Origin: a virus
Reading direction: 5' to 3' (one strand)
IMG/VR virus record: IMGVR_UViG_3300035681_000111
Span: 1-26,190 of that record
DNA: 26,190 nucleotides
Of the stretch, positions 164-15,768 are shown piece after piece; the first letter of the stretch is position 1; each line of letters opens with the position of its first letter. The notes beneath the pieces are model-generated. The model searched no databases, was not told the origin of the DNA, and saw nothing but the letters and a program-made list of their open reading frames with translations. Both the position numbers and the translations under genes were made by a program.

Positions 164-775
164 ATGGACGCCATCCCACCGGACATCGCCAAGAAGCTGC
201 TCAACCGCGACTTCGCCAATCTCGTCAAACGTGTGCAGGCGGGCGGGAAGATCAACCGCACCGAGCGGGCGATGTTGCAGTCGATGGCCTCGGGCGCGGG
301 CGGCGACGGCCCGGCCTACGTGCGCAACTTCGTCGAGCTGGCGGTGGCGCTGAAGGTCAGCCGGCAGACGATCAACGGGTGGAAGAAATTCGAGGACGCG
401 CCTAAGCCCGAGGCCAACGGCCTGCATGACGTGGCCAAGTGGCGGGAGTTCATGCGGGCGCGCGGACTCAAGGGCGGCGAGGAAACCCCGGACGTTCAGC
501 AGGCGCTCAAAGCCCGGAAGCTGCTCGCCGAGGTGGAGGAGCGCGAGCTGCGGCTGGCCGTCCGCCGGGGTGACTTCGTGGCGGTGGAGCAGGTGAAAAA
601 GGAATGGATCGCCCAGATCAGCCGTGCGCGGGCGCTGCTCGAAGCCCGGCTCCTTGATGAAATGCCGCCCGTGCTTTCCGGCAAGGACGCCCACGGCATC
701 CGCGAGGAACTGGAGCGGTTCGTGATCGAATTTTACGAACTGCTGCACGGGGCTACGGACGCCGCGCGGAAATGA
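164..775 (+). CDS. Small terminase subunit (Nu1-like)
   Basis: The 203-residue product probably binds the packaging start site and brings DNA to the large terminase. A helix-turn-helix-like stretch (VALKVSRQTINGWKK, about residues 64-78) is followed by a short wing-like segment and DVAKWREFMRARG. The second half is charged and helical and ends in an acidic, aromatic tail, like oligomerising small terminases. It is immediately upstream of an unmistakable GpA-type large terminase, with ATGA overlap (772-775), so the two are translationally coupled. The ATG at 164 is chosen because the TTGAC-N14 element precedes it exactly as at other gene starts. The family call rests mostly on position and the helix-turn-helix. 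Confidence 0.8.
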   Translation: MDAIPPDIAKKLLNRDFANLVKRVQAGGKINRTERAMLQSMASGAGGDGPAYVRNFVELAVALKVSRQTINGWKKFEDAPKPEANGLHDVAKWREFMRARGLKGGEETPDVQQALKARKLLAEVEERELRLAVRRGDFVAVEQVKKEWIAQISRARALLEARLLDEMPPVLSGKDAHGIREELERFVIEFYELLHGATDAARK

Positions 776-2595
776 GCGCGTTGTTGGATGGCATTTGGCG
801 CGACGCCTGGCGTCCGCCGGATCGCTCGCCTCCGTGGCTCTGGGCGCACCGGCATATCGCGGCGATTCCGTATTCGCCGATCCCCGGGCGGTTTCGCATC
901 GAGAACTCGCCCCACATCCGCGAGCCGCTCGAAACCATTGTCGATCCCGCCGTGCGCCAGGTCTGCATCCTCGCCTCGGTGCAATCCTCCAAGACCACGG
1001 CCGCCGAGCTGGCCCTGTGCTACGTGATCGCCAATCTACCCGGCCCGACGCTCTGGCTCAACGAAACGGACGACGACGCCAAGGACCAGGCCGAGTCCCG
1101 GCTGCACAAGCTCTTCGAGGAATGCGAGCCGGTGACCCGGCTCTTCCCGCGCGACCGCCACAAGAAACGCACGGCCACGATCCACTTCGCCAACGGTATG
1201 ACGCTCTGGGTGCTGGGAGCGCACAACAAAACGAACCTGCAGCGGCGCTCGATCCGCTGGATCTTCGCCGACGAATGCTGGTCCTATCCGCAGGGCCACA
1301 TGGCCGAGGCCGAGGCGCGCGTCACCGCCTTCGGCTGGCTGGGCAAGTGCATCTGGATGAGCCAGGGCGGGGAGGAGGGCGACGATTTCGACCGCAAGTT
1401 CCAGACGACCGACATGCGCGAGTGGACCTTCGAGTGCCCGCATTGCCACACGCGCCAGCCGTGGAGTTGGGAGCAGGTCGAATGGTCCAAAACGGCCCGC
1501 GACGAAAACGGCGAATGGGATTTTGCCGAGGTGCGGCGCACGGCGGCTATGCGCTGCGTGTCGTGCAATTTCTACTTCGATGACAGCGACCGCATCAGGC
1601 GCGAGCTGAACGCCACCGGCCGTTTCGTCGCCCAGAACCCGCGCGCCGCGAAGGAAAATGTCGGTTTCCACTGGAACAGCCTCAGCACGATGAGCTGGGG
1701 CGCGCTCGCGGAGCTGTATCTGCGGGCCAAAGCCATTGCCCGCCGTGGCGACATCAGCACGCTGAAGCAGTTTTTCCAGAAACGCCTGGCCCAGCCGTGG
1801 CGCGAGTATGAGGAAGACTACAAGCTGGAGATCACACGCGGCGGCTATCGCAAAGGCGAACTGTGGGACGACGAGGCCGGCGTGAACGCGCGCGGCCAGA
1901 TTGTCGCCGCGCCCTACGAGCCGGGCGACATCGTGGCTCCTCTGCGCATCCTCACCGTGGACTGCCAGATGGATCACGTTTTCGCGGTCGTGCGCTTGTG
2001 GAGTGCGACCGGTTCGTCCCGACTAATCTGGAACGAACGCTTGCTCACCTTTGAGGACGTCGATGCATTACAAACGCGCTTCGACGTGCATCCGAGCCTC
2101 GTCTTTCTTGATGCGGGCTATGCGACCTACGACGTGTATCGCGAATGTGCCAAGCGTGGCTGGGTCGCGCTGATGGGCGACCGGCGCGCGACGTTCGTCC
2201 ACCGCACTAGGAGCGGGAAGAGCGTGCAGCGTTTCTACTCGCCCCGGCGTAAGGTCGTGCTCGGCCACAACCGGCACTGCTTCGTCCACTACTTCAGTGC
2301 GCTAAACATCAAGGACGCACTCGCGCGGGTGCGGCGCAATCAGAACCCGGAGCGCGGAGGGACGTGGGAAGTGCCCAGCGACATCGACGACGATTACCTC
2401 ACGCAGATGGAAGGCGAGCAGCGCGTGAAAAAATCAGGCAAATGGCTCTGGGAGCGTATCGGCAAGCGGCCTCAGCATTTTTTCGACTGTGAGGTCATGC
2501 AGGTGTGCGCGGCGACGATGCTCAAGCTCATCGGAGCCGAGTCGGAATTGACACCCCCGGTCGAGAGTGACCAAGGAGGAACTTCGGGCCTATAA
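772..2595 (+). CDS. Large terminase subunit, GpA family
   Basis: This is the DNA-packaging ATPase and nuclease (607 residues, close to lambda gpA). The N-terminal ATPase half has a degenerate Walker A region in ILASVQSSKTTAAEL (about residues 66-80) and a Walker B in RSIRWIFADECW. Two CxxC pairs (FECPHCHTRQ and AMRCVSCNF) form the zinc-finger insertion typical of GpA terminases. The C-terminal nuclease begins near ILTVDCQMDHVF, where the first acidic residue of the RNase H-like fold sits, and continues with VFLDAGYATYDVY. It overlaps the small subunit upstream by four bases and the HNH gene downstream by 29 bases. It should dock on the portal encoded at 12657-14102. The wide gap between terminase and portal is unusual and holds the tRNA/RtcB module. 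Confidence 0.95.
   Translation: MSALLDGIWRDAWRPPDRSPPWLWAHRHIAAIPYSPIPGRFRIENSPHIREPLETIVDPAVRQVCILASVQSSKTTAAELALCYVIANLPGPTLWLNETDDDAKDQAESRLHKLFEECEPVTRLFPRDRHKKRTATIHFANGMTLWVLGAHNKTNLQRRSIRWIFADECWSYPQGHMAEAEARVTAFGWLGKCIWMSQGGEEGDDFDRKFQTTDMREWTFECPHCHTRQPWSWEQVEWSKTARDENGEWDFAEVRRTAAMRCVSCNFYFDDSDRIRRELNATGRFVAQNPRAAKENVGFHWNSLSTMSWGALAELYLRAKAIARRGDISTLKQFFQKRLAQPWREYEEDYKLEITRGGYRKGELWDDEAGVNARGQIVAAPYEPGDIVAPLRILTVDCQMDHVFAVVRLWSATGSSRLIWNERLLTFEDVDALQTRFDVHPSLVFLDAGYATYDVYRECAKRGWVALMGDRRATFVHRTRSGKSVQRFYSPRRKVVLGHNRHCFVHYFSALNIKDALARVRRNQNPERGGTWEVPSDIDDDYLTQMEGEQRVKKSGKWLWERIGKRPQHFFDCEVMQVCAATMLKLIGAESELTPPVESDQGGTSGL
2548..2566 (+). promoter_or_regulatory. TTGAC-N14-start element inside the end of the terminase gene
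   Basis: TTGAC at 2548-2552, then 14 bases, then GTG at 2567. The element lies in the coding end of the large terminase, yet the spacing is the same as at intergenic copies, which supports GTG 2567 as the HNH start. Confidence 0.6.
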
Positions 2596-5169: not shown

Positions 5170-5202
5170 GAACCCTGCTCGCCTGATAAGCAAGCAGGGT
5201 TC
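5170..5202 (+). terminator. Ten-pair hairpin, possible terminator
   Basis: GAACCCTGCT (5170-5179) pairs with AGCAGGGTTC (5193-5202) around a 13-base loop, followed by TTCGTTTCC. The T-run is interrupted, so a processing or structural hairpin is equally possible. Confidence 0.4.
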
Positions 5203-5641: not shown

Positions 5642-5669
5642 GCGGCGCGGGTGTCACAACCCGCGCCGC
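5642..5669 (+). other. Strong hairpin at the entrance to the tRNA array
   Basis: GCGGCGCGGGT (5642-5652) pairs perfectly with 5659-5669 around the loop GTCACA. It is followed by CCCATTTG, resembling the CCATTTC that follows most tRNAs in the array. A 5' boundary or processing signal of a long tRNA transcript is plausible; a terminator is less likely as no proper T-run follows. Confidence 0.6.
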
Positions 5670-5675
5670 CCATTT

Positions 5676-5749
5676 GCGGTCATCGTCCAAGAGCAGGATG
5701 CCTGAATGCCAATCAGGCGATGCCGGTGCAATTCCGGCTGACCGCACCA
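5676..5749 (+). tRNA. tRNA-Gly (GCC), altered elbow
   Basis: Acceptor GCGGTCA/TGACCGC, anticodon loop ATGCCAA (GCC at 5708-5710), discriminator A, encoded CCA. D-loop AAGAGCA carries AG instead of GG. T-loop is TGCAATT with G55 instead of T55. Confidence 0.85.
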
Positions 5750-5767
5750 CTTTCAAATACCCACAAC

Positions 5768-5841
5768 ACGGCGGGCGCCAGCTTGCGCAGCTTGGTCTCC
5801 AAAACCTTGCGGGCTCGGGGCAGCACCGAGACGCCGTGCCA
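5768..5841 (+). tRNA. tRNA-Trp (CCA), altered elbow
   Basis: Acceptor is six good pairs plus a G-A (or seven if started at 5767). Loop CTCCAAA gives anticodon CCA at 5799-5801, but the anticodon stem has T-T mismatches. T-loop GGCAGCA, D-loop CAGCTT, discriminator G, encoded CCA. The weak stem makes this the least tidy fold among the named isotypes. Confidence 0.7.
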
Positions 5842-5852
5842 TTTCTTCAAAT

Positions 5853-5925
5853 CGCGGGGGAGCCAGGTGGGAAGGCAGCGGCCTCATAAGCCGTCAATGA
5901 GCGGGTTCGATTCCCGCCCCCGCCA
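5853..5925 (+). tRNA. tRNA-Met (CAT), initiator-like, canonical elbow
   Basis: C1 faces C72 as a mismatch, a hallmark of initiator tRNA, above six pairs GCGGGG/CCCCGC. Anticodon CAT at 5885-5887 lies on a GC-rich stem. It keeps GG in the D-loop (AGGTGGGAA) and a normal T-loop TTCGATT. CCA is not encoded (TCA follows). It is one of only three canonical-elbow tRNAs here. Confidence 0.85.
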
Positions 5926-5935
5926 TCAATTTCAT

Positions 5936-6010
5936 GGGCCGCTCGACCATTCAGGAGGTCACTCGCCTCGCAAGCGGGAGAGCACGGTGCAAAGCCGTGG
6001 CGGTCCACCA
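5936..6010 (+). tRNA. tRNA-Ala (CGC), altered elbow
   Basis: Acceptor GGGCCGC pairs with GCGGTCC (one G-T). Anticodon CGC at 5969-5971 in loop CTCGCAA. D-loop ATTCAGGA has AG; T-loop TGCAAAG has G55. Discriminator A and CCA are encoded. Confidence 0.85.
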
Positions 6011-6019
6011 TTTCAAAAT

Positions 6020-6091
6020 CGCGGGAAGGTTGAGAACCAGAGGAGTCTCATAAGCTCCCCTATCGTGGTGCGACTCCACGTCCCGCAACCA
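6020..6091 (+). tRNA. tRNA-Met (CAT), initiator-like, altered elbow
   Basis: C1 faces A72, the same mismatch as E. coli initiator tRNA, and the end reads CGCAACCA. Anticodon CAT at 6049-6051. The D-arm is very short (GGT TGAGA ACC) and the T-loop is TGCGACT with G55. It is a second initiator-like tRNA, this time with the array's altered elbow. Confidence 0.8.
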
Positions 6092-6095
6092 TCTC

Positions 6096-6184
6096 GGGTT
6101 GGTAGCCGCGTAAAGATCGCGAGCCGCCTGTAAAGCGGATGTCCAGCCGGACCAGCGTCGGAGCGTTACCGACACAACCCACCA
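6096..6184 (+). tRNA. tRNA-Tyr (GTA), class II, altered elbow
   Basis: Acceptor GGGTTGG pairs with ACAACCC (last pair G-A). Anticodon GTA at 6130-6132. A long variable arm (GTCC/GGAC) is as expected for bacterial Tyr. D-loop contains AAAG and T-loop is AGCGTTA. Discriminator A, CCA encoded. Confidence 0.85.
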
Positions 6185-6189
6185 TCCTT

Positions 6190-6266
6190 GGCCTGTTAGC
6201 TCAGCTACGAAGAGCAGCCGCCTGTCGAGCGGAAGGTCGCGGGAGCAATGCCCGCACAGGCCGCCA
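6190..6266 (+). tRNA. tRNA-Asp (GTC), altered elbow
   Basis: Acceptor GGCCTGT/ACAGGCC, anticodon GTC at 6224-6226, discriminator G as usual for Asp, CCA encoded. T-loop AGCAATG. D-loop AGCTACGAA has CG where most others have AG. Confidence 0.85.
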
Positions 6267-6276
6267 TTTTCAATAT

Positions 6277-6351
6277 CGCGCGCGAGGGAGACAGCAACCC
6301 GCCTCGCTTGGGACGAGGAGACACTCGGGGCAGCACCGAGGCGCGCGACCA
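6277..6351 (+). tRNA. tRNA-Pro (TGG), altered elbow
   Basis: Perfect acceptor CGCGCGC/GCGCGCG with the C1-G72 typical of Pro. Anticodon TGG at 6309-6311, D-loop AGACAGCAA, T-loop GGCAGCA, A73 and encoded CCA. Confidence 0.85.
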
Positions 6352-6361
6352 TTTCATTGAA

Positions 6362-6436
6362 GCTCCCGTGGCCGAGCAGACCACAGGCATCCGCCTTCTA
6401 AACGGAACGACGCAGGTGCAATTCCTGCCGGGAGCA
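6362..6436 (+). tRNA. tRNA-Arg (TCT), altered elbow
   Basis: Acceptor GCTCCCG/CGGGAGC, anticodon TCT at 6397-6399 (stem has a C-A at its top), large D-loop with CAG, T-loop TGCAATT. Discriminator A; CCA is not encoded. Confidence 0.8.
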
Positions 6437-6504
6437 AATTGCCGCTCCGGCGGCTATGCGGAATGCGCTCCGCGGTTTTCGGTGAGCGCTTTCGCGCGAA
6501 GCAT
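6437..6504 (+). other. Structured spacer within the array
   Basis: This 68-base gap is longer than the usual 5-15 bases. It holds nested inverted repeats, including GCGGA/TCCGC and GGAATGC pairing with GCATTCC, the latter running into the start of tRNA-Asn. No cloverleaf fits. It may be a decayed tRNA or a processing element. Confidence 0.4.
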
Positions 6505-6579
6505 TCCTCTCAACGCACAGAGTGTGCGGCCCGCCTGTTAAGCGGTGTGAGCTTGGTGCGATGCCAAGGGGAGGAGCCA
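6505..6579 (+). tRNA. tRNA-Asn (GTT), altered elbow
   Basis: Acceptor TCCTCTC/GGGAGGA, anticodon GTT at 6537-6539, discriminator G, CCA encoded. The D-loop is only AGAGT; T-loop TGCGATG. Confidence 0.85.
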
Positions 6580-6589
6580 TTTCACAAAC

Positions 6590-6674
6590 GGAGCGCGTCC
6601 GGCTGGCCGAGGACGCTGTCTTGAAAACAGTCGCACCAGCAATGGTGTCCAAGGTTCGAGTCCTTGGCGCTCCG
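6590..6674 (+). tRNA. tRNA-Ser (TGA), class II, canonical elbow
   Basis: Acceptor GGAGCGC/GCGCTCC, anticodon TGA at 6622-6624, long variable arm CACC/GGTG. The T-loop is the normal TTCGAGT and the D-arm resembles ordinary serine tRNA with GG. Discriminator G; CCA is not encoded. It is one of three canonical tRNAs in the array. Confidence 0.9.
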
Positions 6675-6684
6675 CTTTTCTCAC

Positions 6685-6759
6685 GTCCCTGTAGCTCAAC
6701 AGACTTAGAGCGATCCTCTCCTAAAGGATCAGATGCGAGTGCAACTCTCGCCAGGGATA
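6685..6759 (+). tRNA. tRNA-Arg (CCT), altered elbow
   Basis: Acceptor GTCCCTG pairs with CAGGGAT, with G1-T72 wobble. Anticodon CCT at 6720-6722, D-loop AACAGACTTA, T-loop TGCAACT. Discriminator A, no encoded CCA. Confidence 0.85.
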
Positions 6760-6761
6760 AC

Positions 6762-6835
6762 GCCCGCATGGTGCAATAGCAGCACGCTTGGTTCTCAACC
6801 AGGAAACCCCGGAGCATTACCGGGTGCGGGTGCCA
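6762..6835 (+). tRNA. tRNA-Glu (CTC), altered elbow
   Basis: Acceptor GCCCGCA/TGCGGGT with G1-T72, anticodon CTC at 6794-6796, G73 and CCA encoded. D-loop AATAGCA, T-loop AGCATTA. Confidence 0.85.
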
Positions 6836-6843
6836 CCTTCATT

Positions 6844-6917
6844 CGCCCGATAGCTCAAAAGGAGAGCGACCGGCTCACATCCGGCAGACCGAGGAGCGTT
6901 ACCTCGTCGGGCGACCA
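6844..6917 (+). tRNA. tRNA-Val (CAC), altered elbow
   Basis: Perfect acceptor CGCCCGA/TCGGGCG, anticodon CAC at 6876-6878, A73, CCA encoded. D-loop AAAAGGA, T-loop AGCGTTA. Confidence 0.85.
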
Positions 6918-6924
6918 TCTTCAT

Positions 6925-6998
6925 TCCTCCGTAGCTCAAAAGCAGAGCCCTCGCCCGATAAGCGAGAGACCGCGGCGCAATACCGCGCGGAGGGACCA
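6925..6998 (+). tRNA. tRNA-Ile (GAT), altered elbow, C33
   Basis: Acceptor TCCTCCG/CGGAGGG with T1-G72, anticodon GAT at 6957-6959. Position 33 is C (6956) rather than the nearly universal T. D-loop AAAAGCA, T-loop CGCAATA, A73, CCA encoded. Confidence 0.85.
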
Positions 6999-7000
6999 CT

Positions 7001-7075
7001 GGCTGCGTAGCTGAGATAGATTAGCACTTCGCTGAAGACGAAGGGAGTCCGGCGCGATACCGGACGCAGCCACCA
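7001..7075 (+). tRNA. tRNA-Phe (GAA), altered elbow
   Basis: Perfect acceptor GGCTGCG/CGCAGCC, anticodon GAA at 7034-7036, A73, CCA encoded. D-loop AGATAGATTA, T-loop CGCGATA. Confidence 0.85.
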
Positions 7076-7080
7076 TTTTC

Positions 7081-7155
7081 GCGTCATTGGTGTAACAGCA
7101 AGCACGGCGGTCTTCCAAACCGCGGGCGCCGGGGCAGCACCGGCATGGCGCACCA
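7081..7155 (+). tRNA. tRNA-Gly (TCC), altered elbow
   Basis: Acceptor GCGTCAT/ATGGCGC, anticodon TCC at 7114-7116, A73, CCA encoded. D-loop contains ACAGC; T-arm GCCGG-GGCAGCA-CCGGC. Confidence 0.85.
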
Positions 7156-7161
7156 TTTTTA

Positions 7162-7238
7162 GCTCCCGAGGTGTAAGAGTTCTGCACGCCGCTTTGCGAA
7201 GGCGGAGGTTCGAGGTGCGAGTCCTCGCGGGAGCACCA
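7162..7238 (+). tRNA. tRNA-Arg (GCG), altered elbow
   Basis: Acceptor GCTCCCG/CGGGAGC, anticodon GCG at 7196-7198 with a T-G pair closing the loop. GCG is uncommon because bacteria normally read CGN codons with ACG. T-loop TGCGAGT; D-loop has AAGAG. A73, CCA encoded. Confidence 0.75.
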
Positions 7239-7246
7239 TTTCAGAT

Positions 7247-7320
7247 TCCTCCGTGGCAGAGGTCAGCAATGCACTCCTCTCGTAAAGGAGACCATGCCGG
7301 GGCAGCGCCGGCCGGAGGAT
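7247..7320 (+). tRNA. tRNA-Thr (CGT), altered elbow
   Basis: Acceptor TCCTCCG/CGGAGGA, anticodon CGT at 7281-7283, T-loop GGCAGCG. Discriminator T73 is shared with the two other Thr tRNAs here. CCA is not encoded (CAC follows). Confidence 0.8.
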
Positions 7321-7331
7321 CACTTTCAAAC

Positions 7332-7407
7332 GGAGGCCGTGATGTAACAGCCAGCATTCGATCCTGTGAAGATCGCCGAGCGGGGGCAGCACCCGTCGGC
7401 CTCCCCA
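7332..7407 (+). tRNA. tRNA-His (GTG) with encoded G-1, altered elbow
   Basis: G-1 (7332) faces C73 (7404), the histidine identity pair, above a seven-pair acceptor with one G-T. Anticodon GTG at 7366-7368. T-loop GGCAGCA; D-loop contains ACAGC. CCA encoded. Confidence 0.85.
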
Positions 7408-7416
7408 TTTCCAAAA

Positions 7417-7493
7417 GCGCGCGATGCCGAAATCGTCGAGGCGGCGGCTTGCAAACCCGCTCTTACCCGGTGCAAGTCCGGGCGCGCGCTCCA
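7417..7493 (+). tRNA. tRNA-Cys (GCA), altered elbow
   Basis: Perfect acceptor GCGCGCG/CGCGCGC, anticodon GCA at 7451-7453 (C31-C39 mismatch), and T73, the Cys discriminator. T-loop TGCAAGT. The large D-loop lacks a clear AG and has TCG. Confidence 0.8.
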
Positions 7494-7497
7494 TTTC

Positions 7498-7571
7498 GGG
7501 GCCATCGTCCAACAGCAGGACGACGCAATGGCATTGCGTAGATCGGGGTGCGATTCCCCGTGGCTCCACCA
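7498..7571 (+). tRNA. tRNA-Ala (GGC), altered elbow
   Basis: Acceptor GGGGCCA/TGGCTCC, anticodon GGC at 7530-7532, A73, CCA encoded. D-loop AACAGCA, T-loop TGCGATT. Confidence 0.85.
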
Positions 7572-7578
7572 TTTGGAA

Positions 7579-7593
7579 GGACACAACGTGTCC
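7579..7593 (+). other. Six-pair spacer hairpin inside the array
   Basis: GGACAC pairs with GTGTCC around the loop AAC. The last base overlaps position 1 of tRNA-Pro (CGG). Possible processing signal. Confidence 0.4.
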
Positions 7594-7667
7594 GGGCACG
7601 AGGAAGACAGCAATCCGCGCCGTTCGGATCGGCGAGACACTCGGGGCAGCACCGAGGTGCCCGACCA
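7593..7667 (+). tRNA. tRNA-Pro (CGG), altered elbow
   Basis: Perfect acceptor CGGGCAC/GTGCCCG with C1-G72, anticodon CGG at 7625-7627, D-loop AGACAGCAA, T-loop GGCAGCA, A73, CCA encoded. Confidence 0.85.
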
Positions 7668-7675
7668 TTTCAAAT

Positions 7676-7747
7676 TCCGCCAAAGCGTTGGTAGCGACGC
7701 ACGCCGCTGGTATCGGCGAGAGACCGGTGCAGCTCCGGTTGGCGGAT
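7676..7747 (+). tRNA. tRNA-Thr (GGT), altered elbow
   Basis: Acceptor TCCGCCA/TGGCGGA, anticodon GGT at 7709-7711, T73, no encoded CCA. T-loop TGCAGCT. D-loop TGGTAGCG holds both GG and AG, so its pairing to G55 is ambiguous. Confidence 0.8.
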
Positions 7748-7752
7748 CGTTT

Positions 7753-7828
7753 TGCCCTGTAGCTCAACAGCTAGAGCGCCCGGCTCTGACCCGGGAGGTT
7801 GATGGCGCGAATCCATCCGGGGCAGCCA
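7753..7828 (+). tRNA. tRNA-Gln (CTG), altered elbow
   Basis: Acceptor TGCCCTG/CGGGGCA with the weak T1-A72 pair and G73 of Gln, anticodon CTG at 7786-7788. D-loop AACAGCTA, T-loop CGCGAAT, CCA encoded. Confidence 0.85.
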
Positions 7829-7834
7829 CTTTCT

Positions 7835-7923
7835 GGAAGTCAAAGCGGACGAGCGCGCCGCCGCCGGTTGGAAGCCGGATGGAGCTGCGACCGCAGCTTG
7901 TGGAGCATGTCCACTGACTTCCG
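7835..7923 (+). tRNA. tRNA-Ser (GGA), class II, altered elbow
   Basis: Acceptor GGAAGTC/GACTTCC, anticodon GGA at 7870-7872, variable arm AGCTGC/GCAGCT. D-loop ACGAGCGCG, T-loop AGCATGT. G73; CCA not encoded. Confidence 0.85.
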
Positions 7924-7927
7924 CTTT

Positions 7928-8001
7928 GGGTCGCAAGCATTGCAGCGATGCAGCGGTCTCTTAAACCGCGGAGCACGGGGCAGCACCGTGGCGACCCACC
8001 A
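7928..8001 (+). tRNA. tRNA-Lys (CTT), altered elbow
   Basis: Perfect acceptor GGGTCGC/GCGACCC, anticodon CTT at 7960-7962, D-loop TGCAGCG, T-loop GGCAGCA, A73, CCA encoded. Confidence 0.85.
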
Positions 8002-8011
8002 ATTCCAACAT

Positions 8012-8102
8012 GGAAGCTGAACCGGACAAGCGCGCCGGGACCGCCTCGAGAGCGGATCGTTCTGCTAGGCAGAATGGGGAGCATGACCTCCGGCTTCCGC
8101 CA
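8012..8102 (+). tRNA. tRNA-Ser (CGA), class II, altered elbow
   Basis: Acceptor GGAAGCT/GGCTTCC, anticodon CGA at 8047-8049, variable arm TTCTGC/GCAGAA, D-loop ACAAGCGCG, T-loop AGCATGA, G73, CCA encoded. Confidence 0.85.
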
Positions 8103-8108
8103 CTTTCC

Positions 8109-8183
8109 GCCGGCTTGGCAGAGCAGCCATGCACTCGTCTTGTAAACGAGATCAGACCGGGGCAGCACCGGTAGCCGGCTCCA
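8109..8183 (+). tRNA. tRNA-Thr (TGT), altered elbow
   Basis: Perfect acceptor GCCGGCT/AGCCGGC, anticodon TGT at 8141-8143, T73, CCA encoded. D-loop contains GCAGCC, T-loop GGCAGCA. Confidence 0.85.
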
Positions 8184-8188
8184 CTTGT

Positions 8189-8264
8189 AGCCCTGTAGCT
8201 CAATCAGCGGAGCGCCCGACTTTGAATCGGGAGGTTGATGGTGCGAATCCATCCGGGGCCGCCA
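8189..8264 (+). tRNA. tRNA-Gln (TTG), altered elbow
   Basis: Closely resembles the Gln (CTG) gene in its T-arm and acceptor. Position 1 A faces C72, so the first pair is open. Anticodon TTG at 8222-8224, D-loop AATCAGCG, T-loop TGCGAAT, G73, CCA encoded. Confidence 0.85.
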
Positions 8265-8270
8265 CTCATC

Positions 8271-8289
8271 GCCGCGCACAGCGCGCGGC
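8271..8289 (+). other. Seven-pair spacer hairpin inside the array
   Basis: GCCGCGC (8271-8277) pairs with GCGCGGC (8283-8289) around ACAGC, between the Gln and Val genes. Probably a processing or spacing structure. Confidence 0.4.
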
Positions 8290-8295
8290 ATTCAC

Positions 8296-8370
8296 GCGCC
8301 GGTAGATCAATAGCAGATCGCCGCACCGACATTGCGGAGGCAGGCGGGGCAGAACCGCCCCGGCGCACCA
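8296..8370 (+). tRNA. tRNA-Val (GAC), altered elbow, C33
   Basis: Perfect acceptor GCGCCGG/CCGGCGC, anticodon GAC at 8328-8330 preceded by C33. D-loop AATAGCA, T-loop GGCAGAA, A73, CCA encoded. Confidence 0.85.
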
Positions 8371-8380
8371 TTTCAACAAA

Positions 8381-8457
8381 GCTCCCGTAGCTCAGCAGAT
8401 CAGAGCGGCCGGCTTCGAACCGGCGGGTCGTGGGTGCAATTCCTACCGGGAGCACCA
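8381..8457 (+). tRNA. tRNA-Arg (TCG), altered elbow
   Basis: Perfect acceptor GCTCCCG/CGGGAGC, anticodon TCG at 8415-8417, D-loop AGCAGATCA, T-loop TGCAATT, A73, CCA encoded. Confidence 0.85.
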
Positions 8458-8464
8458 TTTTTTC

Positions 8465-8540
8465 CCCGGCGTAGCCCAACAGCAGAGGCACTCCGCTCAG
8501 AACGGAGCCAGTGCGGGTGCAAATCCTGCCGCCGGGACCA
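8465..8540 (+). tRNA. tRNA-Leu (CAG), short variable loop, altered elbow
   Basis: Perfect acceptor CCCGGCG/CGCCGGG, anticodon CAG at 8498-8500. The variable loop is only CCAGT, whereas bacterial Leu tRNAs are class II. D-loop AACAGCAGA, T-loop TGCAAAT, A73, CCA encoded. Confidence 0.85.
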
Positions 8541-8545
8541 CTCTC

Positions 8546-8617
8546 GCTCCCGTAGCCCAACGCAGAGGCAGCGGACTTAAACCCCGCTCAGTGTCGGTGC
8601 GAATCCGGCCGGGAGCA
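8546..8617 (+). tRNA. tRNA-Leu (TAA), short variable loop, altered elbow
   Basis: Acceptor GCTCCCG/CGGGAGC, anticodon TAA at 8578-8580 with an A-C at the loop-closing pair. Variable loop TCAGT. D-loop AACGCAGA, T-loop TGCGAAT, A73, no encoded CCA. Confidence 0.8.
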
Positions 8618-8629
8618 CTTCATCTCAAT

Positions 8630-8705
8630 GCCCGCGTAGCCCAACAGAAGAGGCACCGACTTCAAACCTCGGACAGTGCAGGTGCAACTCCTGCCGTGGG
8701 CGCCA
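8630..8705 (+). tRNA. tRNA-Leu (CAA), short variable loop, altered elbow
   Basis: Acceptor GCCCGCG/CGTGGGC, anticodon CAA at 8663-8665 (C-C closing mismatch), variable loop ACAGT. Discriminator is G, unusual for Leu. T-loop TGCAACT, CCA encoded. Confidence 0.8.
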
Positions 8706-8707
8706 AT

Positions 8708-8800
8708 GGAACGTGAACCGGACAAGCGAGCCGGGACTCTTTGCTAAAGAGATCGTCGCGCATTTCGCGTGATGGGGAGCATGCCCTCCGCGTTCCGCCA
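8708..8800 (+). tRNA. tRNA-Ser (GCT), class II, altered elbow
   Basis: Acceptor GGAACGT/GCGTTCC, anticodon GCT at 8743-8745, variable arm CGCG/CGCG, D-loop ACAAGCGAG, T-loop AGCATGC, G73, CCA encoded. Confidence 0.85.
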
Positions 8801-8811
8801 TTTCATCAAAC

Positions 8812-8887
8812 GCCCGTGAATGCAAAGAGCCGAGCGCCTCGCCTTTCAAGCGAGTCCTAGCCGGTGCGAGTCCGGCCACGGGTGCCA
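8812..8887 (+). tRNA. tRNA-Glu (TTC), altered elbow
   Basis: Acceptor GCCCGTG/CACGGGT with G1-T72 as in the other Glu gene, anticodon TTC at 8845-8847, D-loop with AAAGAG, T-loop TGCGAGT, G73, CCA encoded. Confidence 0.85.
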
Positions 8888-8899
8888 TTTCAACACAAC

Positions 8900-8976
8900 G
8901 GTCGCGTAGCCCAACTGGAAGAGGCACGGCGTCGAGAACGCCGCCAGTGCTGGTTCAAATCCAGCCGCGACTACCA
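8900..8976 (+). tRNA. tRNA-Leu (GAG), short variable loop, canonical elbow, C33
   Basis: Acceptor GGTCGCG/CGCGACT (G1-T72), anticodon GAG at 8934-8936 after C33, variable loop CCAGT. D-loop AACTGGAAGA keeps GG and T-loop TTCAAAT keeps T55. Its close Leu relatives in the array have AG and G55, an internal control for coupled change. Confidence 0.85.
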
Positions 8977-8980
8977 TTTA

Positions 8981-9052
8981 GAACCCGAAGCTTTGATAGC
9001 GAAGCTGCCGCCTTTTAAGCGGCTCAGGAGGGTGCAAGTCCCTACGGGTTCA
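8981..9052 (+). tRNA. tRNA-Lys (TTT), altered elbow
   Basis: Perfect acceptor GAACCCG/CGGGTTC, anticodon TTT at 9014-9016, D-loop TGATAGCG, T-loop TGCAAGT, A73, no encoded CCA. Confidence 0.85.
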
Positions 9053-9060
9053 TCTTCTTT

Positions 9061-9182: not shown

Positions 9183-9187
9183 CGGTG

Positions 9188-9284: not shown

Positions 9285-9315
9285 ACTTTCAACCAACCAA
9301 CAACCAACACCAACC

Positions 9316-10119: not shown

Positions 10120-10177
10120 ACAGACACAGTGAGTCACCTTCACAGCACTTGGGGCTCGCCAATTGAAAGGAGGAAAA

Positions 10178-10216
10178 GCTCCGTCGGTGGCTGCAATCCG
10201 GCAGCGCCGACGGGGC
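10178..10216 (+). other. Long hairpin between slipin and rtcB
   Basis: GCTCCGTCGG (10178-10187) pairs with CCGACGGGGC (10207-10216), and inner GCTGC with GCAGC. It is followed by ATTTC, not a T-run. The following bases to 10306 contain a second GC hairpin and end in CCCACCATTTTC, like the 3' ends of the tRNAs. Confidence 0.6.
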
Positions 10217-10306
10217 ATTTCTGCTACGACAAAAAAGAACAAACACCGCTGCGCACTCGGAGTGTGTCCGCACGCTGCGCCCACCATTTTCAACCGAACC
10301 AAAACC

Positions 10307-11701
10307 ATGAACACCAAAGACCTCATCCGCCTCGGCGTGCCTGTGGACGAGCCGATCAAGCTCGCGCACGAGTTCATCCAGAACTTCATCGCGCAGGGCC
10401 AGGACGGCGCGCTGCTTGAAGTCGAGATTTTCAACATCGTGGCCAATCCGCCGGCGTTCTTCGCCGACGAACTGCGTGCGCCGCTGGCCCGTGCGATCTA
10501 TCGCCCGGCGTTCACGCCGCGCGCGGAACTCGCGCCGTGGCGTCAGTGGGGCGAGGGCCTCGAAGCCGAGGCGGTGAAGCAGATGGCCAATGCGTGTGCG
10601 CTGCCGGTGGCAGTGGCGGGCGCGCTCATGCCCGACGCGCATGTGGGCTATGGCCTGCCGATCGGCGGCGTGCTCGCGACGGACAACGCGGTGATTCCTT
10701 ACGCCGTCGGCGTGGACATCGCGTGCCGCATGAAGCTCACCGTCTATGACCGCAAGGCGAACACCCTCGCCGGTCAGCGTGACCGCCTCGCGAACCTCAT
10801 CGAAAGCGAAACGCGCTTCGGCATGGGCTGCGAGTTCAAGCAGCGCCGCGAGCACGACGTGATGGACGAAGACTGGAGCGTTTCGCCGGTGACAAACCGG
10901 CTGCGCGACAAGGCGTGGTCGCAGCTCGGCACGAGCGGAAGCGGCAATCACTTCGTCGAGTTCGGTGCGTTTACGGTCGAGCAAAACGATCTCGGCCTTG
11001 AGCCGGGCGAATACCTGGCGCTGCTCACGCACTCGGGTTCGCGCGGCACGGGCGCGCAGGTGTGCGATTTCTACAGCAAGCGCGCGATGGCCCGCCACGA
11101 GCACCTGCCGAAGGAACTCAAGCACCTCGCGTGGCTCTCGCTCGACGACGCCGACGGCCAGGAATACTGGGCCGCGATGAACTTGATGGGCCGCTACGCT
11201 GCCGCGAACCACGCGCTCATCCACAAGCACATCGGCAAGAAGCTCGGCGCGCACGTCGTCCTCGACATCGAGAACCACCACAACTTCGCGTGGAAGGAGC
11301 GCCACGTCGTGAACGGCGAAGAGCGCGAAGTCATCGTGCATCGCAAGGGCGCGACGCCCGCGGGTGCCGGCGTGCTCGGGATCATCCCCGGCTCGATGGC
11401 GTCGCCCGGCTACGTCGTGCGCGGCAAGGGTTCGCCCGAGTCGCTCAACAGCGCGTCGCACGGCGCAGGCCGCGTGATGAGCCGCACCAAGGCGATGCAG
11501 AGCTTCACATGGAGCGCGACCAAGAAGCTGCTCGCCGAGCGCGGCGTCGAACTGCTCTCCGCCGGCCTCGATGAGGTGCCGGGTGTCTATAAGGACATCC
11601 ACGCCGTCATGGCCGCGCAGACCGATCTGGTCGAAGTCCTCGGCCAGTTTGATCCGAAGCTCGTGAAGATGTGCCCAGCCGGCGACCGCGCCGAAGACTG
11701 A
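10307..11701 (+). CDS. rtcB: RtcB family RNA ligase
   Basis: RtcB joins 2',3'-cyclic phosphate or 3'-phosphate RNA ends to 5'-OH ends using GTP and Mn2+, repairing cleaved tRNAs. The 464-residue length is normal. Seen in order: MPDAHVGYGLPIGG (about 108-121), VGVDIACRM with the metal-binding Cys140, GSGNHFVE (211-218), HSGSRG (242-247), ENHHNFAWK (322-330), HRKGATPAG (345-353), PGSM (361-364) and SASHGAGR (382-389). His385 there matches the histidine that takes GMP. All catalytic groups look intact. ATG 10307 is preceded by an A/C-rich leader without Shine-Dalgarno. The position beside 39 tRNA genes strongly suggests tRNA repair or maturation as the job. Confidence 0.95.
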   Translation: MNTKDLIRLGVPVDEPIKLAHEFIQNFIAQGQDGALLEVEIFNIVANPPAFFADELRAPLARAIYRPAFTPRAELAPWRQWGEGLEAEAVKQMANACALPVAVAGALMPDAHVGYGLPIGGVLATDNAVIPYAVGVDIACRMKLTVYDRKANTLAGQRDRLANLIESETRFGMGCEFKQRREHDVMDEDWSVSPVTNRLRDKAWSQLGTSGSGNHFVEFGAFTVEQNDLGLEPGEYLALLTHSGSRGTGAQVCDFYSKRAMARHEHLPKELKHLAWLSLDDADGQEYWAAMNLMGRYAAANHALIHKHIGKKLGAHVVLDIENHHNFAWKERHVVNGEEREVIVHRKGATPAGAGVLGIIPGSMASPGYVVRGKGSPESLNSASHGAGRVMSRTKAMQSFTWSATKKLLAERGVELLSAGLDEVPGVYKDIHAVMAAQTDLVEVLGQFDPKLVKMCPAGDRAED

Positions 11702-11706
11702 CGACC

Positions 11707-11739
11707 GCGGAGGCGGGGCGTGAACCGTTCCGCCTCCGC
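11707..11739 (+). other. Ten-pair hairpin between rtcB and the HNH gene
   Basis: GCGGAGGCGG (11707-11716) pairs perfectly with CCGCCTCCGC (11730-11739). ATCACTTCC follows instead of a T-run. It matches the hairpins before the array and before rtcB in placement, so a shared processing role is likely. Confidence 0.6.
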
Positions 11740-11764
11740 ATCACTTCCAACAACCACTTTTCCA

Positions 11765-12346
11765 ATGAACGACATCCTCAACAAATCGACCGTCCTGGTG
11801 CTCAACCGCAACTGGCAGGCGATCCATGTGAAGACGCCCGCGGAAGCGTTTTGCATGCTCGCCACCGGAGCGGCGACTGCGCTCGACGTGCAGGGCGATG
11901 ACTACATCACGCCCGTGCGCTGGGACGATTGGCTCAAGCTGCCCGTCCGTGAGCACGACAACGCCGTGAACACCCCACGCGGCCCCGTGCGCGTGCCCAC
12001 CGTCATCGTCGCCGCAAACTACGCCAAGGTCCCGCTGCGCCGCCCGTGCTTCGGCACCCGCGGCATCTGGGAGCGCGACGGCGGCGTGTGCCAATACACC
12101 GGCCGCAAGCTCTCGCCGAAGGAAGGCAACATCGACCACGTGGTCCCGCGCTCCCGCGGCGGCAAAACGTCCTGGGACAACTGCGTCCTCGCCCACCGCG
12201 AAGTGAACTCGCGCAAAGCGAACCGTCTCCCGCACGAAGCCGGCCTGCGCCTGCGCAAGCAACCGGTCGCCCCTCGCGTGGTGCCCGCGAGTGTGCTCAT
12301 CCGCAACCACCACGGGGTCCGCGACTGGGAGCACTTCCTCGGTTAG
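11765..12346 (+). CDS. HNH endonuclease, VLNRNW-type small family
   Basis: A 193-residue HNH protein. The N-terminal part (TVLVLNRNWQAIHVKTPAEA, residues 9-28) is the conserved front domain of a widespread bacterial HNH family. The nuclease core GNIDHVVPRSRGGKTSWDN (121-139) with H125 and N139 is followed by HREVNSRKANR. In most relatives CxxC pairs bind a structural zinc; here the first reads CQYTG, so the usual cysteine pair is missing. The role is unknown. Its place after RtcB, with the same A/C-rich leader type, suggests it belongs to the tRNA/slipin/RtcB module, either as a helper or as the nuclease that moved it. Confidence 0.85.
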   Translation: MNDILNKSTVLVLNRNWQAIHVKTPAEAFCMLATGAATALDVQGDDYITPVRWDDWLKLPVREHDNAVNTPRGPVRVPTVIVAANYAKVPLRRPCFGTRGIWERDGGVCQYTGRKLSPKEGNIDHVVPRSRGGKTSWDNCVLAHREVNSRKANRLPHEAGLRLRKQPVAPRVVPASVLIRNHHGVRDWEHFLG

Positions 12347-12402: not shown

Positions 12403-12660
12403 ATGGCGTCCACACCTGATTATTCCATCGGCTTCACCCGCGCCGAGGTGGAGGAAATCCTCGCCGCCCAGAAGGAGGAGCTGAAGCGCACGCTCGCGGC
12501 GTGGTCGGAATCGGGCTCGACGGTCACCAAACGCCGGATCGACGAGATCCATACGATCATCGCCGCGTGCCAGTCGGCGCTGCGGAAACTCGCCCCGGAA
12601 ATCTACGGACGGCCCGTTCGTGTCGGCACGAGCGGGGTCATCGGTCATCTGCCCAAATGA
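12403..12660 (+). CDS. Head-tail joining protein W-like
   Basis: An 85-residue, mostly helical protein (FTRAEVEEILAAQKEELKR, then RIDEIHTIIAACQSALRKL). Size, helix-turn-helix-like layout and the position directly before the portal gene match lambda gpW, which plugs the portal before the tail attaches. It overlaps the portal by ATGA (12657-12660). The family call relies on context and shape rather than a sharp motif. Confidence 0.7.
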   Translation: MASTPDYSIGFTRAEVEEILAAQKEELKRTLAAWSESGSTVTKRRIDEIHTIIAACQSALRKLAPEIYGRPVRVGTSGVIGHLPK

Positions 12661-14102
12661 ATCCACTGCGCGCCATCGCCCGCTTCCTGCCTCGTGCCTG
12701 GTTCAGCCCCTACGAATCGGCCAATCCCTCGCCGCGCCGTGGACGTGTGCCGGGCGCAGCTCCGCGCGATGCGAAACTTGATCTCACACCAGGCACCCGG
12801 CGCGAGCTGGTCCGGCGCTCCCGTTACCTGCACAAGAACTCCGGCTTCGTCCGCGAGCTGGTCGGGAACATGGCCATCTACTCCACCGGCGACGGCATCA
12901 AGCCGCAGGCACTTTCGACGGACACCAACTGGAACAAGGCCGCCGAGGATTACTTCGCCCGGTGGGCCGCCCGCTGCGAAATCACCAGCCGGTTCTGCTT
13001 CGCCGAATGCCAGGCGCTGGTCTGCCGCGGCATGGATGTGGACGGCGAGTATTTCATCCACAAGACCCGGAGCGCCGATGGTGCGCCCCGGCTCCAGCTC
13101 ATCGAATCCCACCGCATCGGCGACGCCGACCTGGATGACACGGAAGATGGCATCGGTTTCGACGCCTACGGTGCGCCCGCTTTCTACCGCGTCCTGCTCG
13201 ACCATGGCGGTTTCCGGGACATCCCGGCCCATGTGATGCTCCATGTCTTCGAGCCGGAGAGCGCGAGCGCGGTGCGGCAGCCGCCCACCTTGCAGCACAG
13301 CGTCAATCATCTGCTGGACGAGATGGAGCTGCTCGCGCTCGAAAAGCATGCGGTGAAGGACAACGCGGACGTGTCCCGCGTGCTCAAGACCGAGCGCGGC
13401 GAACTCGACGAGGACGGCGACTTCGCCATCGGCAAGCCGGCTGACGGTGAAAAGAGTGAGCCGGGCGCGTTGCAGAAGATCATCGGCGGCAAGCTCGTCG
13501 CGCTGAAGCCCGGCGAATCGCTCGACAGCTTCCAGCCAAACCGGCCCAGCCCGACCTTCACCGGCTTCCTCGAACATCTGCGGCGCGACTCGGCGCTCGG
13601 CCACATCCCGTTCGAGTTTGCGGCCGACTCGAGCAAGATCGGCGGCGCAGGCGTGCGGCTGGTGGTGGCAAAGGCCGACCGCCGGTTCTCCTATCGCCAG
13701 CTCATCCTCATCGAGCGGTTCCTGAAGCCGGTATGGTTGTTCGTCATTGGCGATGCCATCGCCACGAGGCAACTACCCGAGGCAGAAAACTGGACGAAGG
13801 TCGCCTTCACGACTCCGAAGCGCGTGACCGTGGATGCCGGACGCGAGGCGCAGCAGAACCGCGCGGACGTGGAGATGGGAATCAAGACGCTCCACGCGCA
13901 TTATGCGGAGCAGGGGATGGACTTTGCCGAGGAGATGGAAATCCGCGCGCAGAACGCCCGGGCGCTGCTCGACCTGGCGGAGAAATACCGGGTGCCACTG
14001 GAGATGATCTACCGCCCGAGCGGCGGCATCGAGGCCACGCCCGTCGTGGGCGAAGTGGAAGATCCGCCACCCCCGCAGCCGCTCAGCCAAGGTTACCGGT
14101 AA
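12657..14102 (+). CDS. Portal protein, lambda B family
   Basis: The 481-residue protein forms the twelve-fold ring at the capsid vertex through which DNA passes. Recognisable lambda-portal features are TRRELVRRSRYLHKNSGFV near residue 47, NMAIYSTGDGIKPQ, QALVCRGMDVDGEYF, and the conserved region LKPGESLDSFQPNRPSPTF. A long helical stem follows with YRQLILIERFLKPVWLFV. The C-terminus is a proline-rich tail (EDPPPPQPL). Length is a little under lambda gpB (533). It is coupled to the W-like gene upstream. The ATG at 12657 is favoured over longer frames because of the ATGA overlap. Confidence 0.92.
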   Translation: MNPLRAIARFLPRAWFSPYESANPSPRRGRVPGAAPRDAKLDLTPGTRRELVRRSRYLHKNSGFVRELVGNMAIYSTGDGIKPQALSTDTNWNKAAEDYFARWAARCEITSRFCFAECQALVCRGMDVDGEYFIHKTRSADGAPRLQLIESHRIGDADLDDTEDGIGFDAYGAPAFYRVLLDHGGFRDIPAHVMLHVFEPESASAVRQPPTLQHSVNHLLDEMELLALEKHAVKDNADVSRVLKTERGELDEDGDFAIGKPADGEKSEPGALQKIIGGKLVALKPGESLDSFQPNRPSPTFTGFLEHLRRDSALGHIPFEFAADSSKIGGAGVRLVVAKADRRFSYRQLILIERFLKPVWLFVIGDAIATRQLPEAENWTKVAFTTPKRVTVDAGREAQQNRADVEMGIKTLHAHYAEQGMDFAEEMEIRAQNARALLDLAEKYRVPLEMIYRPSGGIEATPVVGEVEDPPPPQPLSQGYR

Positions 14103-14245
14103 ACCTTGCGCATGTGCGTCTCGCTCAACCTGACAAACCCTCCGGCGAGCGTGGCTTTGGCACTCTTTGGCTTTGGCGCTGCTGCTTTTGCGGCGATCTT
14201 TTTTCCTTTGGACTTCGGGGAAACCTGCTTGGGCTTTTTCGGCAT
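14093..14245 (-). CDS. Small lysine/alanine-rich basic protein (reverse strand)
   Basis: A 50-residue frame beginning MPKKPKQVSPKSKGKK and continuing with AAKAAAPKPKSAK, like histone H1-type tails, then a less biased end (GGFVRLSETHMRKVYR). It fills most of the 234-base gap between portal and protease, on the opposite strand, and overlaps the portal end by 10 bases. Such peptides can bind DNA or RNA. The frame may extend to 14305, and it has no clear start signal, so a chance frame is possible. Confidence 0.4.
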   Translation of the reverse strand: MPKKPKQVSPKSKGKKIAAKAAAPKPKSAKATLAGGFVRLSETHMRKVYR

Positions 14246-14317
14246 CCGCGCACGCTGGGGAGCGGCATGATCGAAGTCAACGTGAATGCCGGTGCGCAGT
14301 TTCAATCGACCTCGCCG

Positions 14318-14336
14318 TTGACAGGCCGCGTCCGGC
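14318..14336 (+). promoter_or_regulatory. TTGAC-N14-start element before the protease gene
   Basis: TTGAC at 14318-14322, 14 bases, then GTG 14337. Supports GTG as the protease start. Confidence 0.6.
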
Positions 14337-15158
14337 GTGACGCCGCTCCTTCACGCCATCCATCATCAGCCCTGGCTCATCACGCCCGAGGCACACGCCG
14401 CCATGGGCCGCACCGCCGGCCACGCCGGACTGTTCACCCAGCCACCGCCGCCACCGCCGGAATCGGAATTCCTGACCATCGAACACGGCGTCGGGATCGT
14501 CTCCATCTCGGGCGTCCTGATGAAGCGCCCGGACCTCTTTTCCCGCGTGCTCCTGGGCGCGACGGACATAGACGAGATTGCGGCGGCACTGATCGAGGCG
14601 CGCGATCGTGCCGATGTGCGGGCCGTGTTCCTCGACGTGGATTCGCCGGGCGGCACGGTCAACGGCACCCCGGAACTGGCCGCGCTCGTGGCCGACGTGT
14701 CCAAGGCCAAATACACCTACGCTTTCACCGACAGCGAAATGTGCAGCGCGGCCTACTGGATCGCCTCCCAGGCCGATGCCATCTACGCCACGCCCAGCGC
14801 GCGGGTCGGCTCCATCGGCGTGTTGCTCCCGATGCTCGATGAGACGAAGGCTTTCGAGCAGGCAGGGCTCAAGGTCGAGCTGTTCGCCGCCGGCAAATTC
14901 AAGAGCGTCGGCGTGCCGGGCGTGTCGCTGACCGACGAGCAGCGCGCGTGGCTGCAAGCCGACATCGACGAAATCTACGGCGACTTCAAAGCGGCCGTCC
15001 TCGCCCGTGGCCGACGCATCACCGCCGACGTGATGGAGGGCCAATGCTTCTCGGGCCGCAAAGCATCCTACAACTCGCTCACTTCCGGCGTCGTCCAGGA
15101 TCGCGCCACCGCGCTGATGAAGCTGCGCGAGCGGCACGTCCAGCCGCCGGCGAGTTGA
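14337..15158 (+). CDS. Capsid maturation protease, S49 (lambda C-like)
   Basis: The 273-residue protein is an SppA/ClpP-fold serine protease of the lambda gpC type, which cleaves scaffold and portal during prohead maturation. Seen: VGIVSISGVLMKRP, FLDVDSPGGTVNG (about residues 99-111, oxyanion-hole glycines), the nucleophile region SEMCSAAYWIAS with its catalytic serine, and FAAGKFKSVGVPG with the catalytic lysine about 50 residues later. ARVGSIGVLLPM is also typical. No scaffold is fused at the C-terminus; a separate scaffold gene follows. Confidence 0.92.
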   Translation: MTPLLHAIHHQPWLITPEAHAAMGRTAGHAGLFTQPPPPPPESEFLTIEHGVGIVSISGVLMKRPDLFSRVLLGATDIDEIAAALIEARDRADVRAVFLDVDSPGGTVNGTPELAALVADVSKAKYTYAFTDSEMCSAAYWIASQADAIYATPSARVGSIGVLLPMLDETKAFEQAGLKVELFAAGKFKSVGVPGVSLTDEQRAWLQADIDEIYGDFKAAVLARGRRITADVMEGQCFSGRKASYNSLTSGVVQDRATALMKLRERHVQPPAS

Positions 15159-15177
15159 CATCAAAACGCAGGCACAG

Positions 15178-15756
15178 ATGAAAACCATCGACGAACAACT
15201 CGAAGAGGCTCTCGCGCGCATCGCGCAGCTCGAGAGCGACGCCACCGCCAGCGCAGCGCTGCTCACGGAATCCGGCCACCAGCACGAACGCTTCCGCCAG
15301 GAGATTGCCGCACTGACCAAGGAAAAGGACGCCCTCGCGGCTTCCACGTCCGCCGAACAAATCGCCGCGCTCACCGCCGAGAAGGAAACGCTCACGCTCG
15401 CCAACGGCGAGTTGACCGAGCAGCGCGACCAGATCGCGGGCGAACTCGCCACCGCGAAGCAATCGCTCACTTCCGCCGCGACCTCCGCCGCAGACCTCAC
15501 GAAAGCGCAGGAACAGATCGCGGCACTCACGGCCGAGGTCGCCAATCTCAAAGCCAACGCCAAATCCGCCGAGCGCATCGCCGCCGAGCGTTACGGCGCC
15601 GCCAGCCCGCAACCGCTCCCGGTCACCTCGCGCGGCGACAGCAAGGCCGACGAACTCGTGACCCGCTTCAAAGCCATCAGCGATCCCGCCGAGCAAACCG
15701 CCTTCTGGCGCTCCCTCACCCCCGAACAACGCACCCTCATCCAAAACGCCCACTAA
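15178..15756 (+). CDS. Capsid scaffold protein (coiled-coil)
   Basis: A 192-residue protein that is almost wholly coiled coil for its first 140 residues (repeats such as EEALARIAQLES, EIAALTKEKDAL, QIAALTAEVANLK). A short globular end follows (ELVTRFKAISDPAEQTAFWRSLTPEQRTLI). It lies between the S49 protease and the capsid gene, the standard place of lambda-type scaffolds. It probably shapes the prohead and is degraded by the protease. A TTGAC occurs upstream (15155-15159, made with the protease stop) but 18, not 14, bases before ATG. Confidence 0.85.
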   Translation: MKTIDEQLEEALARIAQLESDATASAALLTESGHQHERFRQEIAALTKEKDALAASTSAEQIAALTAEKETLTLANGELTEQRDQIAGELATAKQSLTSAATSAADLTKAQEQIAALTAEVANLKANAKSAERIAAERYGAASPQPLPVTSRGDSKADELVTRFKAISDPAEQTAFWRSLTPEQRTLIQNAH

Positions 15757-15768
15757 CCATCCATCGTC

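Follow-up and report, generated by a model that had tools for sequence, protein, structure and literature searches.

The systems closest to the locus described here are the trn operon of Anabaena sp. PCC 7120 and the tRNA array units carried by mycobacterial phages, plasmids and chromosomes. In Anabaena, TrcR represses a 26-tRNA operon as well as rtcB, slipin and HNH endonuclease genes; antibiotics that target translation induce the tRNA operon, which favours survival (PMC10272220). The mycobacterial units are dense, cover most amino acids, include an HNH gene and have been proposed to serve in antidefense; changes in the D- or T-loop are not mentioned in either report (PMC5966550, PMC12803027). 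Here we analyzed a stretch of 26,190 nt (the window) that is one entire IMG/VR record, IMGVR_UViG_3300035681_000111, and belongs to a tailed phage, judging from its terminase, portal, protease and head genes. Placed between these genes is an array of 39 tRNA genes, packed into 3.38 kb on the (+) strand and accompanied by an HNH gene at 11720, as in tRNA array units. We consider it likely that the array is part of a portable tRNA-replacement and RNA-repair module, an optional block of the phage in which most tRNAs have an alternative elbow.

Apart from a few special tRNAs, the tertiary pair between G18 and pseudouridine 55 (Psi55) is regarded as almost universal, and it underlies tRNA finders and studies of modification. 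We combined a relaxed cloverleaf scan, which gave no credit for TTC or GG, with a separate enumeration of T-arms, and located long-variable-arm and weak tRNA genes in the gaps by reading the sequence. Together these recovered exactly the counts of an initial annotation of the window: bases 54-56 are TGC in 17 genes, GGC in 9, AGC in 7, CGC in 3 and TTC in 3. The D-loops likewise agreed with that annotation, with AG, rarely CG, at the position of the usual GG in the G55 genes, and GG in all three TTC genes (Met 5853, Ser 6590 and Leu 8900). Misalignment can be rejected as the cause of the G55 counts, since they were recovered by a scan that does not favour TTC or GG. The main features of the array, with examples of each kind of gene, are as follows.

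5676..9052, + strand: tRNA array of 39 genes for all 20 amino acids; 36 with G55-C56, 3 with U55-C56
5676..5746, + strand: tRNA-Gly(GCC), example of a G55 gene; D-loop AAGAGCA (A18 G19), T-loop TGCAATT
6277..6348, + strand: tRNA-Pro(TGG), example of the G54/G58 subclass; T-loop GGCAGCA, C1-G72 and A73 retained
6844..6914, + strand: tRNA-Val(CAC), example of the A54/U58 subclass; T-loop AGCGTTA
8009..8100, + strand: tRNA-Ser(CGA); D-loop ..ACAAGCG.., T-loop AGCATGA
5853..5925, + strand: tRNA-Met with an ordinary elbow (GG, TTC); C1 faces C72, initiator-like
6590..6675, + strand: tRNA-Ser(TGA) with an ordinary TTC T-loop
8900..8973, + strand: tRNA-Leu(GAG) with an ordinary GG/TTC elbow

The array genes match the canonical cloverleaf, with stems of 7/4(3)/5/5 bp and 7-nt anticodon and T loops, and they retain G19 and C56. 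What they lack is the canonical G18-G19/U54-U55-C56 combination: 36 of the 39 have no U55, and nearly all of these have no G18. A strict search for a T-arm with acceptor and CCA found 28 matches in the array, all of them forward and none on its reverse strand, and no match in five other stretches of equal length, so the array is not a product of chance. Under conservative wobble rules the 39 anticodons cover 55 of 61 sense codons and 20 of 20 amino acids. Standard tools missed about half of the genes (ARAGORN made 19 calls, and Rfam RF00005 gave ~20), which implies that tRNA counts for phages are too low. Weak D-arms were seen in the Trp gene (5768) and the CAT gene (6020), which may be degraded, and a degraded, Val(CAC)-like fortieth piece with GG/TTC lies just past the array, at 9100-9178.

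The initial annotation had further proposed that positions 18 and 55 change in a coupled way while C56 and G19 stay constant. Loci for an independent comparison were collected with the T-loop pattern GGCAGCA, which gave 118 viral and at least 117 genome stretches, many of the latter being chance matches without an array. The pooled set comprised 1,030 non-redundant tRNAs, drawn from arrays of phages, plasmids and chromosomes and including metagenomic records, with heuristic loop numbering; position 18 was assigned by a rule blind to the T-loop, and counts were restricted to tRNAs with C56. The proposed coupling was borne out in phages and bacterial chromosomes alike, with 18-55 combinations of G-U in 544 tRNAs, A-G in 378, C-G in 15, A-U in 12 and G-G in 3 (Fisher p = 3e-244, in a test that ignores shared ancestry). 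Most of the A18-U55 cases are GG loops in the wrong register. By sequence covariation, A18 thus stands opposite G55 in 378 of 404 tRNAs, and tRNAs with A18-G55 number in the hundreds across other phages, plasmids and bacterial chromosomes. The annotators' statement that they knew of no such tRNA set holds in one respect: A18-G55 tRNAs had no earlier description in the open-access literature that we searched, which is not exhaustive. It does not hold in the sense of a set unique to this phage.

Apparent switches between the two elbows were found among tRNAs with the same anticodon and ~80-90% identity outside the loops, for Arg, Leu, Gln, Pro, Val, His and Ala. For Leu(GAG), the window gene has CAACTGGAAGA/TTC (GG), as opposed to CAACAGAAGA/TGC (AG) in L229, with ~90% identity outside the loops. 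For Ser(CGA), the window gene has AAG/AGC (..ACAAGCG..), as opposed to AGG/ATC (..ACAGGCG..) in Caulobacter phage CcrRogue. The latter gene (L286:6008-6095) is unannotated and has A54 in an otherwise ordinary elbow. A second coupled change, missed in the initial annotation, links position 54 with 58 and 60: within the G55 class, 54-58 covary as U-A, G-G, A-U and C-A, base 60 follows, and mutual information between 54 and 58 is 1.19 bits, against 0.18 in the U55 class. A8 is also commoner in G55 than in U55 tRNAs (A8-A14 in 61 and A8-U14 in 14 of 451), and the 8-14 tertiary pair may be changing in the G55 class too.

The swap corresponds to a known RNA motif, rather than to an unknown pairing. 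In tRNA, residue 18 is inserted between 57 and 58, in contact with 55, and the G19-C56 pair forms a flat outer face that is read by the ribosome and RNase P (PMC4810234). In the UGNRA T-loops of rRNA and riboswitches (type R1 lonepair triloops), the loop G and an A from outside complete a composite GNRA tetraloop (PMC2258182). Residue 57 is a purine in 509 of 510 G55 tRNAs, so that the GNR core is present in all but one; the complete U-G-N-R-A occurs in the TGC class, and the GGC, AGC and CGC classes share the core with a different closing pair at 54-58. G55-C56-R57 together with A18 of the D-loop thus probably adopts a composite GNRA fold in which A18-G55 would replace G18-Psi55 and G19-C56 would be retained. 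The likeness to the described motif lies in the outside A meeting the loop G; the difference is that here it would replace the tRNA's own UUCRA/G18 elbow. Such an elbow should fold, and we infer that it would be stable, without Psi55. As the initial annotation held, TruB cannot act at position 55 of these tRNAs: a G cannot become pseudouridine, and the G55 tRNAs thus lack Psi55. Its parallel claim for TrmA stands where T54 is absent (19 of the 36 genes) and falls for the 17 TGC genes, which are still methylatable at that position. Non-standard D- and T-loop bases are also found in tRNA-Pyl, allo-tRNA, tRNA-Sec and mitochondrial tRNAs, in which, however, arms are lost or remodelled or a single amino acid is served (PMC7609411). 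Unlike these, the phage array combines a normal cloverleaf and all 20 amino acids with one exchanged tertiary pair.

Neither the habits of the host nor a missing enzyme accounts for the swap. Dispersed chromosomal tRNAs in the three array-bearing Verrucomicrobiota genomes sampled were GG/TTC in 56 of 56 cases (23/23 and 33/33), which rejects G55 as the normal tRNA form of the host lineage, and TruB is encoded in 6 of 6 array-bearing genomes, which rejects its absence as the cause. TrmFO matches in the hosts all fell below the curated cut-off, and their lengths resemble the related MnmG. Among the arrays fetched, some are nearly all G55 and others mix G55 with ordinary tRNAs; 24 loci are mixed, and 38 (some overlapping) are dominated by G55, chiefly in Verrucomicrobiota and metagenomic phages. 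Among the matches listed, G55-rich cellular arrays are nearly all from Verrucomicrobiota assemblies, and two Bradyrhizobium arrays hold one or two G55 tRNAs. A blastn search of the array against phages returned similarities to single tRNAs only; the relatives of the array point to Verrucomicrobiota hosts for the phage. Were the two elbows simply interchangeable, arrays could drift from one to the other through compensated double changes that bring no benefit, as the repeated switches between similar tRNAs and the 24 loci holding both kinds would allow. However, the absence of G55 from all 56 dispersed tRNAs and its dominance in 38 loci make a direction likely, and we regard such near-neutral exchange as unlikely.

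We next considered whether the G55 tRNAs appear functional. In the pooled set, as distinct from the window array alone, they have G3-U70 in 22/22 tRNA-Ala, C1-G72 in 32/34 tRNA-Pro, G-1 in 14/19 tRNA-His, the bacterial discriminator base in 382/456 and an encoded CCA in 457/510, with identity signals close to the level of U55 tRNAs. With these signals kept and CCA mostly encoded, the G55 tRNAs look functional, which is hard to square with decoys or debris. Decaying pseudogenes or debris of homing endonucleases would fit the adjoining HNH gene, the low scores given by standard tools and the few genes with weak D-arms or without encoded CCA; yet the acceptor, anticodon and T stems are preserved, the coupling of 18 with 55 has hardly any exceptions and identity signals stand at the U55 level, so that we give this explanation very little credence. 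Improbable, too, is a decoy or sponge that would occupy tRNA nucleases, modifying enzymes or tRNA sensors and take no part in translation. An elbow unlike the host's would suit this role, and damaged tRNAs reportedly induce rtcB in Salmonella (as related in PMC10272220), but a decoy would need neither tRNAs for all 20 amino acids nor encoded CCA, G3-U70, C1-G72 and G-1. Among pooled G55 tRNAs, A73 replaces the bacterial U73 in 26/37 tRNA-Gly, and G73 is present in 12/32 tRNA-Phe.

Downstream of the array lie slipin, RtcB and HNH genes, and the phage backbone flanks the whole.

164..2595, + strand: terminase small and large subunits (phage backbone)
9316..10119, + strand: slipin/Band 7 (SPFH) protein (PF01145, 1.1e-32)
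10163..11701, + strand: RtcB RNA ligase (phrog_1075, 2.5e-94)
11720..12346, + strand: HNH endonuclease, of a kind common next to tRNA arrays
12501..16662, + strand: portal, head maturation protease and major head protein (phage backbone)

The block thus brings together the gene types of Anabaena's TrcR regulon (a tRNA array, rtcB, slipin and HNH; PMC10272220), which suggests a portable tRNA-replacement and repair module. In the phage the genes are physically linked, unlike in Anabaena, and the likeness is one of gene types. In a close relative (L006, terminase 98% identical) the flanking genes are joined without the array-slipin-RtcB-HNH block (L006:14061-14194 compared with window 4835-12501), and this junction is an empty site for the block. 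More distant terminase relatives, at 57-89% identity, have no arrays, and one of them (L011) has a single ordinary tRNA. In L037/L125, RtcB and HNH are 93-94% identical to those of the window and the terminase 80%. Related gene sets occur in chromosomes: in a 5.96-Mb Verrucomicrobiota contig (L328, G110:C1:1297000-1316900), 30 scanned tRNAs, nearly all G55, precede genes for a sigma-70-family factor, RtcB, Band 7 and two members of the RlaP repair family, possibly a sigma-controlled operon for RNA repair and a tRNA reserve, and a smaller array in G211 is accompanied by RtcB and HNH. Of the HNH relatives retrieved from plasmids of rhizobia and Tsukamurella, most are without an array.

The proposed module thus builds on the coupled change and how widely it occurs, on the retained identity signals, on the set of neighbouring genes and on the empty site, all of them observed in the sequences. 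Its array tRNAs would be charged by host synthetases and sustain translation when host tRNAs are cut or scarce, and RtcB would rejoin cut tRNAs; its purpose would be to rescue the cell's translation after tRNA damage and, possibly, to evade enzymes that recognise the ordinary elbow. The swap itself would be an added feature, and what it brings may be an elbow that folds without Psi55, evasion of elbow-reading enzymes, or no benefit at all.

Several points weigh against this proposal. Without U54-A58, the GGC, AGC and CGC subclasses agree with UGNRA in part only; common ancestry inflates the Fisher p-value; the collecting pattern GGCAGCA biases the subclass counts, which thus do not give true prevalence; and L125/L037 and L039 carry the module elsewhere, the exact boundary being inferred. 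Moreover, the ordinary elbow is retained in several known arrays that adjoin RtcB or HNH, so that the swap is not needed for rescue. The plasmid array of Nostoc PCC 7524, used here as a related comparison for Anabaena PCC 7120, has an HNH gene nearby and ordinary U55 in 15 of 16 tRNAs; only Ile(GAT) departs from this, with AG/GGC (L331:9468-9538). Rescue role and elbow swap are thus separate matters. In Tunturiibacter phage Tunturi_5 (L338), 15 of 15 tRNAs are without G55, and a sampled mycobacterial array (L287) differs from the window in the same way, with U55 and an ordinary T-loop in 26 of 26. The Tunturi_5 array is unannotated and is accompanied by HNH, RNA ligase and S6 modification (RimK-like) genes; rtcB, HNH and rimK also belong to the Anabaena TrcR regulon (PMC10272220).

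The swap could, alternatively, be an immunity device: if the ordinary elbow is what nucleases, toxins or modifying enzymes of the host recognise, an A18-G55 set would survive the destruction of host tRNAs. G55 tRNAs do occur in mobile or clustered arrays and are absent from the dispersed host tRNAs sampled, and the adjoining RtcB implies tRNA breakage. For AriB, contact with the D-loop is predicted, cleavage was weakened by a change in that loop, and one tRNA variant of phage T5 is spared; AriB is, however, independent of Psi55 (PMC12409363). In mixed arrays the G55 share varies by amino acid (p 2.6e-4), with Arg and Lys mostly U55 and Ile and Phe mostly G55, but the Verrucomicrobiota arrays switch nearly all amino acids, which a nuclease directed at a single tRNA would not explain. 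In addition, most of the tRNA nucleases described in the AriB source (PMC12409363) cut the anticodon arm, and this analysis identified no antiphage nuclease that reads the elbow. With PADLOC defence models, RtcB and slipin gave no match and HNH gave generic HNH-domain matches only, and a listed defence system was rejected for want of a useful match. We hold the immunity explanation to be possible, though somewhat doubtful. Similarly tentative is a version of the module proposal in which the A18-G55 tRNAs form a second set that works without Psi55, evades ordinary-elbow enzymes and is deployed with RNA repair as a partly orthogonal back-up for decoding. Regardless, natural A18-G55 sets are ready-made double mutants with which to probe the roles of Psi55 and G18, and one that serves 20 amino acids lets one ask about evasion of elbow-reading enzymes and about the breadth of translation-rescue modules.

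Individual G55 tRNAs are also present in named phages. The cultured Brevundimonas phage Kabachok has an annotated G55 tRNA-Val and an unannotated G55 tRNA-Phe (L313:331-401 and L313:419-489), and Erythrobacter phage XM05 has two G55 tRNA-Val (L312:8291-8362 and 8557-8628) among at least 18 array tRNAs, in a stretch where its record annotates no tRNA. A long variable arm is normal for bacterial tRNA-Leu; the four window tRNAs with Leu anticodons (8465, 8546, 8630 and 8900) all have a 5-nt variable loop. In the pooled set, 'Leu' tRNAs without the long arm number 35/76 among U55 and 33/42 among G55 tRNAs, and the window Leu tRNAs show single-gene similarity to an actinophage tRNA-Leu of 75 nt.

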